A stretch of DNA of 27,730 bases from a virus, in IMG/VR virus record IMGVR_UViG_3300035703_000363, positions 1 to 27,730 of that record; one strand, given 5' to 3'. The stretch's first letter is position 1; every line of letters begins with the position of its first letter. Below, one piece after another: positions 21,296 to 26,571 of the stretch. Below the pieces are notes generated by a model, which did not search any database, was not told where the DNA came from, and saw only the letters and a list, made by a program, of their open reading frames with translations. The position numbers were made by a program, and so were the translations under genes.

Positions 21296-22477
21296 ATGGC
21301 AAAGAAAGATAGAGAAACCGAAGGAGCACCTGTAAAAAAGTCTGAAGTTGATGACATGATGAAGGATCTCATCACGTCAATCAATAAGGAGTTTGGAACT
21401 CGTGTCGCCTACAACTTGTCTGAAATGGACGCACCTACGATTGTAAAACGCTGGATTGATACAGGTTCTATTCAGCTAAATTATGCAATTCGTAATGCAT
21501 CACAAGGCGGTTATCCTGAAGGTAGAATTATTGAGATCAGCGGTCCACCTTCTTCAGGTAAGTCACATCTCGCCTATCACGCCGCAGCAGTTGCACAGAA
21601 GCTTGGTGGTCTCGTGGTCTATGTCGACACCGAAAACGCCACTCCTGTACAGAAGCTCGCTGATATGGGTATCGATGTCCGCAAGAGATTCGTCTATGTT
21701 GATACCCACTGCACAGAGGAAGTCTTCTCCATCATTGAATCCACAATCACGAAGGCGAAGCAGATCGTCGAGAAGAACGTTCCAATCGTTGTGATCTGGG
21801 ACTCTGTGGCCGCAACATCACCCAAGGCCGAGCTTGACGGTGAGTATGAAGACAACTCTATCGGTCTTCAGGCTCGTGTCATCTCCAAGGGTATGCGTAA
21901 GATCACGGGTGTCATTGGACAGAACAACGTCACTCTCCTTTGCATCAATCAGATCCGCGAAAAGATCGGTGTGATGTACGGTGATCCAACCACCACACCT
22001 GGCGGTAAGGCAATTCCGTTCCATGCCTCCGTCAGAATCTCCCTGTCCAGCGGCAATCCCGTCAAGGACAAGGACAACAATGTCATTGGCATCCACGTCA
22101 TCTGCACACTCAAGAAGAACAAGGTGGCACCCCCTTTCAAGAAGTGTGAGTTTGACATCATCTTTGGTAAGGGCATCGTCGAGCATGAATACATCTTCGA
22201 TGAAGTGCGTACCTGGTGCAAGGAAAATGGCGGTGTCATCTTTGAGGGAAACAAGATCTCCATTACAGGTGACGGCGCCTGGAAGGAACTTACTGTCTCC
22301 TCTGAAAAGACAGGTGAAGTTCTCATCACCAAGAAGTTCTACAAGGCAGACTTTGGCGAAGTGATGAAGGACGAGAAGTACAAGAAGTATGTCGATGCCG
22401 TGATTGAAGCCGCGTTGACCATAAATCCAGGCACAATTGAACAGTTAATTGAAGAGGAGATAACGTCTGATGAGTGA
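21296..22477 (+). CDS. uvsX: RecA/UvsX-type recombinase
   Basis: 393 residues. RecA-fold ATPase with Walker A GPPSSGKS (83-90), catalytic Glu in VYVDTENAT (E113), Walker B VVIWDS (165-170) and an L2 region CINQIREKIGVMYGDPTTTP followed by GGKAIPFHASVRI that is closer to bacterial RecA (NQxRxKIGVMxGxPETTxGG) than to T4 UvsX. KNKVAPPFKKCEFDIIFGKG is also a RecA-like stretch. It forms filaments on single-stranded DNA and drives strand exchange for recombination-dependent replication and repair, working with the SSB made by the gene just upstream. AAGGAA lies 7-12 nt before the ATG. The stop overlaps the dUTPase start by 8 nt. Symbol uvsX is used for role; a recA label would be equally fair. Confidence 0.9.
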   Translation: MAKKDRETEGAPVKKSEVDDMMKDLITSINKEFGTRVAYNLSEMDAPTIVKRWIDTGSIQLNYAIRNASQGGYPEGRIIEISGPPSSGKSHLAYHAAAVAQKLGGLVVYVDTENATPVQKLADMGIDVRKRFVYVDTHCTEEVFSIIESTITKAKQIVEKNVPIVVIWDSVAATSPKAELDGEYEDNSIGLQARVISKGMRKITGVIGQNNVTLLCINQIREKIGVMYGDPTTTPGGKAIPFHASVRISLSSGNPVKDKDNNVIGIHVICTLKKNKVAPPFKKCEFDIIFGKGIVEHEYIFDEVRTWCKENGGVIFEGNKISITGDGAWKELTVSSEKTGEVLITKKFYKADFGEVMKDEKYKKYVDAVIEAALTINPGTIEQLIEEEITSDE

Positions 22478-22895
22478 CATTGTCGTAGGTTATAAGAATC
22501 AGATTCCGCCAAGATATGCGACGCCTGGTTCCGCAGGTTGCGACCTCATTGCGAGTGAAGAAGTCACTTTACCACCTGGCAAGTGGGCGGCCGTCAACAC
22601 TGGACTTTACTTGGAAATCCCCAAAGGCTATGTAGCCCTTGTCTGCCCACGTTCTGGTCTGGCCCTCAAGAATGCCATCTCTGTCCTCAATGCACCAGGT
22701 GTCATTGACTCTGATTATAGAGGTGAAGTTAAGGTGATTCTTGTCAATCATGATTCTCTTAGATACACAGTGAAGAAGGGTGATAGAATCGCTCAACTTG
22801 TCTTCACACCTGTCGTGCAGGTTGAAATGAAACCTATCGATCAACTCACGTCTACTGATCGTGGTGAGGGTGGATTCGGTAGCACTGGGAGATAA
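22470..22895 (+). CDS. dut: dUTP diphosphatase (dUTPase)
   Basis: 141 residues, the usual length of a trimeric dUTPase subunit. All five motifs are present: GSAGCDLIA (20-28), PRSGLALKN (60-68), NAPGVIDSDYRGEV (74-87) with catalytic D80, GDRIAQLV (104-111) and the C-terminal arm RGEGGFGSTGR (131-141). It hydrolyses dUTP to dUMP and diphosphate, which keeps uracil out of phage DNA and supplies dUMP for thymidylate. It overlaps the recombinase gene by 8 nt and is followed by the small membrane-protein gene after 1 nt, so it is part of a tightly coupled operon. No missing residues were noticed. Confidence 0.96.
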   Translation: MSDIVVGYKNQIPPRYATPGSAGCDLIASEEVTLPPGKWAAVNTGLYLEIPKGYVALVCPRSGLALKNAISVLNAPGVIDSDYRGEVKVILVNHDSLRYTVKKGDRIAQLVFTPVVQVEMKPIDQLTSTDRGEGGFGSTGR

Positions 22896-22896
22896 C

Positions 22897-23214
22897 ATGG
22901 AACAGGTCCTTTTAGTTCTACTCTCATTTGGTCTTGGCTATGCCTTAGGATCTCTTGACAATCTTCGAAAGGCGCTAAAAGGACCTGTTGAAGAACAATC
23001 TAACTCTTTTGTTTCTGGTGTGATTAATTCTCAGAGAGATCAAAAGACTCAAGTACGTAAGAAAGTCACAATTGATGAAACAAAGTATGTGACTGACATT
23101 TCAACAGAGGCCTTGGAATTAAAAGGTTCTTCCCTTGGTGTTGTGACACAGACTTCTGACAACATAACGACTGCAGCAAACAAGCTCGCTCAATTAAAGA
23201 AGATGAAAGGATAG
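22897..23214 (+). CDS. Small single-pass membrane protein upstream of the actin-like gene
   Basis: 105 residues from the ATG at 22897 (GGGAGATAAC upstream). A hydrophobic segment at residues 3-20 (QVLLVLLSFGLGYALGSL) is followed by basic residues (DNLRKALK), which predicts N-out/C-in topology with an 85-residue cytoplasmic tail. The tail contains KKVTIDETKYVTDIST, a conserved-looking block, and ends KLAQLKKMKG. No family is recognised with confidence. The gene lies 1 nt after the dUTPase gene and 8 nt before the actin-like ATPase gene, so the products are probably made together; it could be a membrane anchor for the filament protein, but that is inference. Confidence 0.65.
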   Translation: MEQVLLVLLSFGLGYALGSLDNLRKALKGPVEEQSNSFVSGVINSQRDQKTQVRKKVTIDETKYVTDISTEALELKGSSLGVVTQTSDNITTAANKLAQLKKMKG

Positions 23215-23222
23215 TTATAGAC

Positions 23223-24227
23223 ATGGCTAAAGGTTTAGATGTCGGCACTTCATTCATCGTCCTCTCATCCGAGGGCGAGGGTGGAACCGTTGAGTACAAG
23301 GATTTCAGAGACGCTTTCTACGTGATCAAGCCCACCACTCCGATCGCATCAAAGATGATCGAGAAGGGCCTCGCCGGAAAAGTTTTCGTAAAAGACACAG
23401 ATGGTTCCTACATCATCCTGGGCAAGGATGCCATTGAGAAAGCAGTGGAAAGGAACGACTCTGCGAAGCGACCCATGTATAGAGGAGTCGTGTCTTCCAA
23501 GGAGAAGGACGCTCGACGTGTCCTGTCGTACATACTTAAGGAAGTTGCTGGAAAGGCCACAAAGAAGGGCGAAAAGCTCGTCTTCTGTGTTCCTGCACAA
23601 CCAGTCGATCAGGAAGACGATGATTTTGATGTTGGCTACCATGAGGACGTCGTCAAGAAGGTCCTCGAAGAATGTGGTTATGAAGCTCGGGCGATCAACG
23701 AAGCGGAAGCGCTATGTTACTCGGAGCTTGCGGACGATGACTATACCGGTGTTGCCTTGTCTTGGGGCGCGGGTATGGTTAACGTTTGTGTCATGCTAAA
23801 CGGCGAGCCTGTCGTCAAGTTCTCCACAACGAAGTCTGGTGACTGGGTTGATCGCATGGCAGCAGTTGCCACCGGTGAGACAGATTCGATCGTCCAGGCC
23901 GAAAAGGAACAGGGCGATTTCACCATTGGCAAACCCAATGATAATCAGGTTCTCGCTGCAGTCGCCACCTATTACGATCGTCTCATTGATTACACCACCA
24001 AGCAACTCGCAGTGGCGATGGATGGACACAAGTCACTTCCAAAGTTTAAGGATCCACTTCCTGTCGTAGTGGCAGGTGGCACCACAAAAGCCAAGGGATT
24101 TGTAAAGCATTTTGAGATGAAGCTCGTTGAAAACGACTTCCCATTGCGTGTTAAGGAAGTGCGCCACGCCGCCGATCCTCTTCACGCCGTCGCTAGGGGT
24201 TGTCTCATCGCATCGCAGATTCTCTGA
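23223..24227 (+). CDS. Actin-fold ATPase (ParM/MreB/Alp-like)
   Basis: 334 residues, the size of ParM and MreB. Actin-superfamily signatures in order: phosphate-1 loop KGLDVGTSFIVLS (3-15); connect-1 helix INEAEALCYSE (158-168); phosphate-2 loop VALSWGAGMVNVCVM (177-191); a GDWVDRMAA stretch (206-214); and the adenosine motif PVVVAGGTTKAKGF (280-293). In most actins phosphate-2 starts with an Asp (DxGxGT); here the region reads LSWGAGMVN, so that Asp is missing. Such proteins usually form ATP-driven filaments that segregate DNA or position complexes; phage examples transport phage DNA or replication centres. It lies in the recombinase-dUTPase operon beside a small membrane protein. An Hsp70-like or non-filament role is possible. 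Confidence 0.82.
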   Translation: MAKGLDVGTSFIVLSSEGEGGTVEYKDFRDAFYVIKPTTPIASKMIEKGLAGKVFVKDTDGSYIILGKDAIEKAVERNDSAKRPMYRGVVSSKEKDARRVLSYILKEVAGKATKKGEKLVFCVPAQPVDQEDDDFDVGYHEDVVKKVLEECGYEARAINEAEALCYSELADDDYTGVALSWGAGMVNVCVMLNGEPVVKFSTTKSGDWVDRMAAVATGETDSIVQAEKEQGDFTIGKPNDNQVLAAVATYYDRLIDYTTKQLAVAMDGHKSLPKFKDPLPVVVAGGTTKAKGFVKHFEMKLVENDFPLRVKEVRHAADPLHAVARGCLIASQIL

Positions 24228-24586
24228 TGGACGCTAACGTAACGTGGAACGTTTCTGAAGACACTGCAAGTCTTTTGGAAGCGATTTCTAAATGTAAGAA
24301 GGAGTTGACCAAACTTTGCTTCGCAAAGTTTGGGTCAGCAAAAATCTCTGAGTATAAAGTCTTTGCACCGCAAAAAGTATGTGAATTACTTTTATTAGCA
24401 GATGGTAACACCCTCATCAAAGGCAAAGAATTTGACTCATACTGCCACAAGGCACTCACTGACTTTGAGCAATTCAGACTCTTCAAGACGAAGATGTTTG
24501 GCGATTCAATTTTAAGGATTGAAGCCAAATTTGATGTTGGTGAAGGTATATGCAAGCATTGGTATGGCGACGTAACTTTAGCTTGA
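24227..24586 (+). CDS. Unknown protein translationally coupled to the actin-like gene
   Basis: 119 residues. The ATG at 24227 shares its A with the stop codon of the actin-like gene (TGATG), a classic coupling arrangement. The protein is mixed helical and beta with a run of Cys and Lys early on (ISKCKKELTKLCFAKFG), a middle VFAPQKVCELLLLADGNTLI, and an end FDVGEGICKHWYGDVTLA. No family recognised. A 14-bp inverted repeat lies inside the coding region at 24306-24337. The 3' end overlaps the opposing endonuclease gene by 9 nt, so the present C-terminus may have been set by that insertion. Confidence 0.6.
   Translation: MDANVTWNVSEDTASLLEAISKCKKELTKLCFAKFGSAKISEYKVFAPQKVCELLLLADGNTLIKGKEFDSYCHKALTDFEQFRLFKTKMFGDSILRIEAKFDVGEGICKHWYGDVTLA
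24306..24337 (+). repeat. Long inverted repeat within a coding region
   Basis: TGACCAAACTTTGC (24306-24319), loop TTC (24320-24322), then GCAAAGTTTGGGTCA (24323-24337) make a 14-bp stem with a single bulged G in the 3' arm. It sits inside the unknown gene at 24227-24586 and is by far the longest near-perfect hairpin I found in the window. There is no T tract after it, so it is not a simple terminator. Confidence 0.85.
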
Positions 24587-25567
24587 GCTGTTAACAACAG
24601 ATCTTACTGACTGTTCTATGCCAACCTCTCTAATGTCTTGCTCCCATATAACTGCAGTCTTGTACCCAAGCTTGACTGCAGTTTCTAATTTCTTTTCGTC
24701 TTCTCTCCAAAGATCTGACGCAAAAATATTTCTTGAAGCATCAAAGAAACACGCTTCATACAAGTCAGGATTGAGATGCCAATAATCTCCATTCACTTCT
24801 ATGACGAGATTTAGCTCAGGAACATAGATGTCATATACGTAAGTTCTCTCATGTGTGGCAGGATGACTATGAACTGTTCCCGGGAACAGTCGAAGAAATT
24901 CTTCAAAAATGGAAATTTCAATCTTACTTCGCCAGAGGCCATTGTTTCCGTAGCCAAATTTTCCGTTCTTCCACGCTTGAGAAGTAGCTTTGCTGAGTTT
25001 TTCTCTTGTGTCAGAAGAATGATTCTTGCCTTTCATCGGGCTTTGTCCACCCCGCTCGAAATACTTTTTTCTTGCTTCACTGAGCTTTGTTTTTGTTTCT
25101 TCTGAGAACTGCTTTCCACGATTTGGACTGTTCTTTAACATCCATTCAGACTGCTCTTTGCTTCTTCTTTCATAGAATCCGTTTCTCGTTGCAGTCTCAA
25201 CTGCTTTCTTTCTTGATTCTGCAATTTTCTCAGGTGTAAGTGTGCCTCTTTCTATTCGAGTCTTTGTAGATTCAGAAATTTTTTTCTTCGTTTCTTCAGA
25301 CAGGATTTTCCCTTTTTGAGATTCACTTATTTTTCTGTTCCATTCAGGTGTGCGATTCTGTTTTTTTCCAATGTTTTTTAAGCATCTTATTTTTCCTCTT
25401 TCAGCCATGATTTTCTTTGCACATTCTTTGTATTCATGCTGTAATCCTTCCTTTAAGAGACGCGTTATTTTATTTCTTCCAAATCCATACAACTTCATGA
25501 GATCTGGTATGCTATGAGATCCTGATTTAAAAAGAGCACACATTTCCTGTAGTACATTGTCGTTCAT
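24578..25567 (-). CDS. Second free-standing homing endonuclease (HTH + NUMOD3 + Vsr-like nuclease)
   Basis: 329 residues on the minus strand. Residues about 18-42 form a helix-turn-helix-like start (HSIPDLMKLYGFGRNKITRL). NUMOD3-type repeats follow: KGKILSEETKKKISES (85-100), RGKQFSEETKTKLSEA (150-165), KGKNHSSDTREKLSKA (179-194). The C-terminal nuclease is Vsr-like/PD-(D/E)xK: WRSKIEISIFEEF (212-224), YVYDIYVPELNLVIEVNGDY (243-262) with D246 and E257, and a closing YKTAVIWEQDI (302-312). It shares architecture with the first endonuclease but little direct sequence, and has opposite composition (nt 25261-25320 contain 19 G/C of 60), so the two came from different sources. Its end overlaps the 24227 gene by 9 nt and its start is adjacent to a perfect dyad. 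No clear ribosome site is visible. Confidence 0.85.
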   Translation of the reverse strand: MNDNVLQEMCALFKSGSHSIPDLMKLYGFGRNKITRLLKEGLQHEYKECAKKIMAERGKIRCLKNIGKKQNRTPEWNRKISESQKGKILSEETKKKISESTKTRIERGTLTPEKIAESRKKAVETATRNGFYERRSKEQSEWMLKNSPNRGKQFSEETKTKLSEARKKYFERGGQSPMKGKNHSSDTREKLSKATSQAWKNGKFGYGNNGLWRSKIEISIFEEFLRLFPGTVHSHPATHERTYVYDIYVPELNLVIEVNGDYWHLNPDLYEACFFDASRNIFASDLWREDEKKLETAVKLGYKTAVIWEQDIREVGIEQSVRSVVNSSS

Positions 25568-25568
25568 A

Positions 25569-25582
25569 CCAATAAGTATTGG
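25569..25582. promoter_or_regulatory. Perfect dyad in the divergent gap between endonuclease and exonuclease genes
   Basis: CCAATA (25569-25574) and TATTGG (25577-25582) are perfect inverted arms around AG. The dyad begins 1 nt upstream of the endonuclease ATG (25567, minus strand) and lies in a 41-nt gap that must hold any promoter for the two divergent genes. It could be an operator or an RNA hairpin limiting endonuclease translation. Confidence 0.4.
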
Positions 25583-25608
25583 GGTAAGCTGTAAAAGAAC
25601 TAAGATAC

Positions 25609-26571
25609 ATGAATAGACCTATTTTTATTGTGGATGGTATGAATCTCTTTTTGCGAAGTTTCAGTGCTTATCCAACAATGTCCTCACACGGATATCAAAT
25701 GGGAGGCTGCGTAGGATTTCTAAAATCGCTTCAGCGCCTGTGCAGAGAATTTCAACCTTCTAAAGTGTATATCACATGGGAAGGAGGAGGTTCTCAGCGC
25801 AGGCGTAAATTATATTCTGAATATAAGGCCAATAGAAAACCTGGTAAGCTTAATCGCTTTTATGGTGACGATATTCCTGACACTGAAGAGAACAAGCAAC
25901 ATCAGCTTGTTACGCTCATTGGTATTTTAAAGAATGTGCCTGTCTGTCAAGTTTATGTTTCTGACTGTGAGGGAGATGATATCGTAGCGTTCCTCGTGAG
26001 AGGTCCTTTCAGAAACAAAGACGTCATCATCGTTTCTGCCGATAAAGACATGTACCAACTTCTTGGGCCAAAAGTCAAGATATACTCTCTGTATAGAAAG
26101 AAATTCATCACAGACGCCGATCTGTTTGAAGAATTTCGAATCAAGTCGCACAATTTCGCCTTGGCGAAATGTCTCTGTGGCGACGACTCTGACAACATCC
26201 CCGGTGTTCAGGGTCTAGGTTTCAAGACAGTTGCGAAGAAGTTTCCAATGTTGGCATCCGATGAAACTATAATTCTTCAAGACCTTCTGAGTTACGCTCA
26301 CACACAGAAAGGCACCCTATACAAGAGGGTGGCAGAAAACGCAGATATCGTTAATAGAAATTGGCAATTGGTCCATTTGGACGGAAGCATGCTCTCAGCG
26401 GACCAGACGATCCGCGTGAATCACATGGTAGATACATTTGCTCCATCTGTCAATAAGATGACATTCATTAAGTTGCTGCTTAAAGAAGGAATCAACGACT
26501 TTGACCATGAGGGTTTTTTCTATGACCTCTCATGTGTTGATGGTTTGAGATTCGCTTCGGGGAATCAATGA
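25609..26571 (+). CDS. 5'-3' exonuclease / flap endonuclease (T4 RNase H-like)
   Basis: 320 residues, close to T4 RNase H. FEN/PIN-type metal ligands are in place: D9 in IFIVDGMNLF, YSEYKANRKPGK (69-80), E121, D123 and D124 in CEGDDIVAFL, D145 and D147 in VSADKDMYQL, and D192, D193 and D195 in CGDDSDNIPGVQGLGFKTVA, which runs into the helix-three-turn-helix that binds DNA. It removes RNA primers and flaps on the lagging strand and prepares ends for recombination. The ATG at 25609 has only weak purine-rich sequence upstream. The 3' end overlaps the helicase start by 4 nt (ATGA), so the two are probably translated together. Confidence 0.9.
   Translation: MNRPIFIVDGMNLFLRSFSAYPTMSSHGYQMGGCVGFLKSLQRLCREFQPSKVYITWEGGGSQRRRKLYSEYKANRKPGKLNRFYGDDIPDTEENKQHQLVTLIGILKNVPVCQVYVSDCEGDDIVAFLVRGPFRNKDVIIVSADKDMYQLLGPKVKIYSLYRKKFITDADLFEEFRIKSHNFALAKCLCGDDSDNIPGVQGLGFKTVAKKFPMLASDETIILQDLLSYAHTQKGTLYKRVAENADIVNRNWQLVHLDGSMLSADQTIRVNHMVDTFAPSVNKMTFIKLLLKEGINDFDHEGFFYDLSCVDGLRFASGNQ

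Follow-up and report, generated by a model that had tools for sequence, protein, structure and literature searches.

Genomic Context of the Locus

The window analyzed here, i.e., the whole stretch of DNA under study (27,730 nucleotides), is a 27.7-kb IMG/VR viral fragment with T4-like content, and its source is an uncultured tailed phage. It notably carries baseplate and tail genes, a PolA-type fragment and, 5' of the UvsX gene, a gp32-like SSB gene. Using its 1031-aa structural protein as a query, no close cultured relative was found. In a preliminary description of this DNA, three adjacent genes encoding a single-pass membrane protein (hereafter MEM), an actin-fold ATPase and a 119-aa protein were placed within a recombinase–dUTPase operon. 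All three open reading frames exist at the coordinates assigned to them, and the UvsX and dUTPase genes indeed precede them on the same strand:

21296–22477, plus strand: UvsX/RecA recombinase, operon neighbor (PF00154, E = 9.3e-68; phrog_97)
22470–22895, plus strand: dUTPase, operon neighbor (identity from the preliminary description and sequence motifs)
22897–23214, plus strand: MEM, small single-pass membrane protein, 105 aa (upstream gene in 58/58 testable clade-A actin loci)
23223–24227, plus strand: Volactin-family actin, 334 aa (Pfam PF25216, E = 2.7e-66; AF2 pLDDT 93.3)
24227–24586, plus strand: 119-aa protein of unknown function (no Pfam or NCBIfam hit)
25609–26571, plus strand: 5'-3' exonuclease, RNase H/FEN-like (PF02739, E = 1e-28)

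The order UvsX, dUTPase, MEM, actin and 119-aa gene is compact, with 1 nt between the dUTPase stop and the MEM ATG and 8 nt from the MEM stop to the actin start. The actin stop and the ATG of the next ORF share bases (TGATG), and this 119-aa gene is translationally coupled to the actin gene. Further 3' are found a minus-strand homing endonuclease, the RNase H-like exonuclease and a DnaB-type helicase. The endonuclease, which is of the NUMOD3 type (24578–25567, minus strand) and separates the 119-aa gene from the exonuclease, is missing in most relatives, in which the 5'-3' exonuclease lies directly 3' of the actin unit, while a related endonuclease occupies the same site in one relative (L014). 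Another homing endonuclease is probably encoded by a second long minus-strand ORF (822–2480, 552 aa), in which TKETDERV segments recur and the C-terminal part resembles an endonuclease. Within the MEM gene, a 15-nt perfect inverted repeat (22901–22915/22975–22989, 59-nt loop) was considered and set aside, as it is absent in relatives.

A Volactin-Family Actin Lacking the Phosphate-2 Aspartate

The ATPase belongs to the Volactin family over its whole length, as it matches Pfam PF25216 with 224.7 bits for a cut-off of 35 (positions 1–320 of 321, E = 2.7e-66). This membership is secure: of the 14 control genomes, Haloferax volcanii alone passed the PF25216 cut-off, MreB-bearing controls remaining below it, and the phage protein shares 35–37% identity with plasmid-borne haloarchaeal volactins over 99% of its length. 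The MreB models scored below their cut-offs (PF06723, 21.3 bits vs 27; TIGR00904, 14.2 vs 366), as did the Salactin models NF053533 and PF25229 (35.5 bits vs 400 and 25.9 vs 27.1, respectively). A ParM/StbA identity was rejected on the basis of the phosphate-2 residue, which is Ser and not Asp, and of the lack of any ParM match in Pfam, NCBIfam and PHROGs.

The protein contains a phosphate-1 motif (GLDVGT), an Asp-less phosphate-2 motif (LSWGAGMVN) and the adenosine motif GGT. The preliminary description had pointed out the missing phosphate-2 Asp, and Ser180 does occupy the position of the Asp found in other actins; this is nevertheless no peculiarity of one phage. Indeed, Ser180, Gly182, Gly184 and Asn187 are invariant in 73/73 phage volactins aligned from three clades, an alignment across which the phosphate-1 Asp6 is also kept, and the haloarchaeal volactins compared have the same S-x-G-[AS]-G-M-x-N loop. 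The absence of the Asp is thus a fixed trait of the whole family. In AlpC, mutation of the phosphate-2 Asp led to a catalytically inactive protein whose filaments were rare and more stable (PMC4446434), so volactin turnover without this residue needs another route. Tyr139 and His140, likewise invariant in the 73 phage sequences, are candidates for a replacement catalytic arrangement, judging from their conservation. Purifying selection on the actin gene is strong (dN about 0.02–0.04 and dS 0.6–1.6 against close relatives), and the gene is the most conserved of the operon, or one of the most conserved.

An AF2 model was computed from the 73 phage sequences (mean pLDDT 93.3, pTM 0.90) and used in place of a shallower one, built from close relatives only, which reached a pLDDT of 72. 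Foldseek comparison with the PDB returned as top matches the MamK filament (TM 0.71/0.73), the BeeR filament (0.72/0.69) and MreB. PilM and FtsA gave TM values of 0.51–0.54, compared with 0.59–0.72 for MamK, BeeR and most MreB entries, and the first DnaK entry appeared at rank 39 (TM 0.55/0.38). This ranking argues against an Hsp70-like monomer, the fold that had been named as fatal to the original proposal, and the predicted structure supports a filament-type actin fold. Such a fold is nevertheless no proof of polymerization.

The Conserved Unit Is a Membrane Protein–Actin Pair

A first scan of viral sequences yielded 361 actin relatives, 80 of which were taken into a locus comparison; over all scans, the viral relatives number in the hundreds. 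In clade A, the phage group of the present locus, a MEM gene lies upstream of 58 of the 61 distinct actins; since the contigs of the remaining three are cut within or after the MEM gene, this corresponds to 58/58 testable loci. Reverse search from MEM alone retrieved an actin gene 6–83 nt downstream in 29/29 loci, with a profile built from closer MEM sequences and many contigs common to both searches. The pair is found in diverse contexts, namely with uvsX, dut, exonuclease and helicase genes, with IMP dehydrogenase (IMPDH) and DNA polymerase III alpha, with ribonucleotide reductase, with RuvB, or with sugar-transferase/NUDIX genes. The 119-aa protein was present in only 16/80 loci, all from close relatives. 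The conserved unit is therefore the MEM–actin pair and not the trio first put forward: the association of actin and membrane protein is strongly supported and recurs everywhere in relatives, but the third gene does not follow it and, missing from 64/80 loci, the 119-aa protein is set aside as a core adaptor.

In two loci (L047 and L050, 5178–6008), a DNA methyltransferase gene lies between the MEM and actin genes. In another (L344, downstream of 2815), the actin gene (64% identical) seems to be split, with matches to residues 1–244 and 171–334 lying 1.6 kb apart, perhaps through an inserted element or because part of the gene is duplicated. Intein-like domains were also observed in neighboring ribonucleotide reductase (L057, 389–4390) and DNA polymerase III alpha (L027, 8036–9691) genes.

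Anatomy of the Membrane Protein

MEM is composed of an N-terminal membrane helix, a variable linker, a first motif (VTIDETKYVTDISTEALE, about residues 57–74) and a C-terminal second motif (SDNITTAANKLAQLKKMKG, residues 87–105). Across the family, the consensus sequences are K-I-x-IDD-x-KFVTDVSTD for motif 1 and DDI-x-x-A-x-x-KLA-x-LKK for motif 2, with mean majority fractions of 0.63 and 0.62, compared with 0.25 for the linker. Leu97 and Lys101, both in motif 2, are invariant. The helix, which has the signature G-Y-x-x-G-R, is only moderately hydrophobic in 6/41 MEM sequences. Lys and Arg residues average 0.12 before the helix vs 3.0 in the 20 residues after it, with the same sense in 41/41 sequences, and, following the positive-inside rule, this pattern places the MEM tail in the cytoplasm. 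As read from the sequence, the layout is that of a membrane tether with short putative binding motifs.

Partner Tails in Other Phage Clades

Two further phage clades of volactins were delineated, clade B around the huge phage LR756511 and clade C around LR745208. A maximum-likelihood tree, arbitrarily rooted and computed without an outgroup of other actins, separates clades A, B, C and the archaeal pair, with support values of 87/83 for clade C and 100/100 for the others. Upstream of volactin, a distinct partner gene is found in each of the phage clades.

In clade C, the partner is a 160–270-aa protein ending in F-[IV]-P-x-x-I...D-x-A-x-x-A-L-x-x-L-R-K, which is encoded directly upstream in 17 distinct loci and in LR745208; an HMM of this tail had a match no more than 2 kb upstream in about 15 of the other 20 clade-C loci. 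When compared with each other, the tail profiles of clades A and C match in register (HHalign, P = 3.1e-4), with a score equalled by none of 600 permutations (300 by column and 300 by block). As the clade-C tails had first been chosen by eye, a second test matters: over 4520 ORFs from 75 clade-A loci, the clade-C tail HMM gave 22 matches on the ORF at the partner position and three elsewhere, a count for which, the loci being related, a Fisher p is no true probability. The presence of the same tail type on a different carrier makes this tail look like a general volactin-binding element. Clade-C volactins (L081, L237–L283) lie among long unannotated genes resembling a virion cluster, and the tail-bearing partner could there link the filament to virion parts.

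The clade-B partner is a protein of 70–80 aa with the end W-x-IPDF....K-x-x-FGK, recovered by pattern in 52/63 loci. Its tail was considered as a member of the same type, but it gave no profile cross-hit to the clade-A, clade-C or archaeal partners and is hence kept as a separate type. Downstream of the clade-B actin (L155–L234), there is also a conserved gene whose product reads 'DLGAAAYxLMH...SSEFHRFDSCLMSLKKI'. Overall, the layout of an actin with a tail-bearing partner recurs in other phage groups, and probably in haloarchaea.

Haloarchaeal Volactins and DUF7139

The volactin of H. volcanii (VolA, HVO_2015), which belongs over its full length to the same PF25216 family as the phage actin, forms dynamic filaments in living cells, the tips of which touch the membrane (PMC10869688). 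A gene for a DUF7139-type membrane protein (PF23600) lies upstream of volactin in 4/4 plasmid records from three named haloarchaeal strains, and DUF7139 is also present in the H. volcanii genome (presence only). The haloarchaeal relatives share with the phage actin both the Asp-less phosphate-2 loop and an upstream membrane-protein gene, although the phage partner is a one-helix protein of 100 aa and DUF7139 a multi-helix one.

The cytoplasmic tail of DUF7139 carries the motif SSTVDDQTAKLKELR in Natrinema and SNDVDDAVDGLRQLQ in Haloarcula. A motif matrix derived from the clade-A phage proteins only ranked DUF7139 first among 60 ORFs in one archaeal locus and first among 61 in the other; the match is short, and of the p values from shuffled tails (0.055 and 0.0005), only one of the two is significant alone. 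This similarity is a lead and no proof of homology.

Distribution

Among 50,697 phage records, no cultured phage had a detectable volactin, and the only matches were two uncultured huge phages; hundreds of environmental phage contigs, in contrast, carry one. In a scan of genome collections, volactin occurred on only three metagenome-bin contigs, and a survey of 395 Bacteroidota genomes recovered a single convincing case, on one of these same contigs, so that nothing points to a common bacterial source within this phylum. This contrast between cultured and environmental phages points to a widespread phage cytoskeleton that has gone unstudied. In the literature searched, mostly outside subscription journals, there was no report of phage volactins, of the MEM partner or of DUF7139. 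Given the secure Volactin membership, the actin represents a known type; the new part is its obligate membrane-anchored partner together with the recurring tail.

Proposed Mechanism and Alternatives

The computations give the family, a predicted fold, the pairing, a membrane helix with its topology signal, and a tail that is conserved and has a similar counterpart in another clade. On this basis, we consider it reasonably probable that the locus encodes a membrane-tethered phage actin filament system, captured by a tail-binding anchor and expressed with replication genes. The volactin-type actin would assemble ATP-dependent filaments during the replication phase. MEM would reside in the inner membrane with a cytoplasmic tail, whose two conserved motifs would bind the filament, most likely at its end or in a groove at the end, a site proposed by likeness to the ParR C-terminal helix on ParM. 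Filaments captured at the membrane may then organize the replication–recombination machinery or phage DNA there, with a possible benefit for replication, and the carrier of the tail would decide what the filament is hitched to.

This reading has to be weighed against a non-filamentous scaffold resembling PilM–PilN, in which a monomer or ring docks on a MEM peptide and forms a membrane complex without dynamic filaments. Such a scaffold is consistent with the presence of PilM:PilN and FtsA:FtsN structures among the structural matches of the model, with the binding of PilM to a short peptide from a membrane protein with one transmembrane segment, and with the absence in volactin of an Asp needed for hydrolysis elsewhere. 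It is unlikely, given that PilM and FtsA fit more poorly than MamK, BeeR and most MreB entries, and that VolA, the closest studied relative, makes dynamic filaments in cells (PMC10869688). MreB–RodZ, PilM–PilN and FtsA–FtsN do similarly associate an actin-fold protein with the cytoplasmic portion of a partner that crosses the membrane once, but RodZ, PilN and FtsN are unrelated in sequence to MEM, these systems have cell-wall or pilus roles, and PilM and FtsA are the weaker structural matches. The cell-shape role of VolA itself need not apply to the phage protein.

Two other explanations appear improbable, and about equally so. A ParMRC- or AlpAC-like system would segregate or transport DNA through an adaptor that binds DNA, a role in which the 119-aa protein could serve, MEM being secondary. 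The replication-operon setting and the AlpAC precedent in a phage favor such a DNA mover; nonetheless, the constant partner is a membrane protein, and the 119-aa protein is not part of most loci. In addition, no DNA-binding adaptor was found near the operon, and positions 22000–25700 contain no repeat array of three or more units but two-copy families only, with no centromere-like repeat. AlpC–AlpA of the Corynebacterium prophage CGP3 likewise pairs a phage actin with a small co-transcribed partner and is linked to replication, but AlpC keeps the phosphate-2 Asp, and the adaptor AlpA binds DNA and has target repeats, in contrast to the membrane protein found here. In plasmids, ParM also has a partner encoded next to it, ParR, whose C-terminal helix binds the filament; the present system differs by its membrane-anchored partner, its lack of centromere repeats and its actin family. 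The last explanation is host takeover, the pair disturbing host MreB or FtsZ, cell shape or envelope, or blocking superinfection. The membrane location favors it, as do the varied genomic contexts of the pair, which are also seen with accessory takeover genes, but several of these contexts concern replication or nucleotide metabolism, and the actin, at or near the top of the operon in conservation, does not resemble the usual host-specific takeover gene. As for the tethered filament that we favor, PhuZ of jumbo phages is likewise a phage-encoded filament for intracellular organization but is a tubulin, without a dedicated membrane-anchor gene.

Implications for the Volactin Family

More tentatively, and with a probability we would place somewhat below even, haloarchaea and phages may have in common a volactin module made of an Asp-less actin and an upstream-encoded partner, in which a filament-binding C-terminal tail is borne by varied carriers: a one-helix membrane protein, the multi-helix DUF7139 protein, or proteins of a probable virion gene cluster. 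If so, DUF7139 would be the membrane anchor of haloarchaeal volactin, and volactin hydrolysis would use a different catalytic arrangement. DUF7139 thereby becomes a concrete candidate for the factor holding volactin tips at the Haloferax membrane. A family that always lacks the phosphate-2 Asp tests what filament turnover really needs, and the MEM–actin pair offers a small two-gene system for asking how phages anchor filaments to the membrane.
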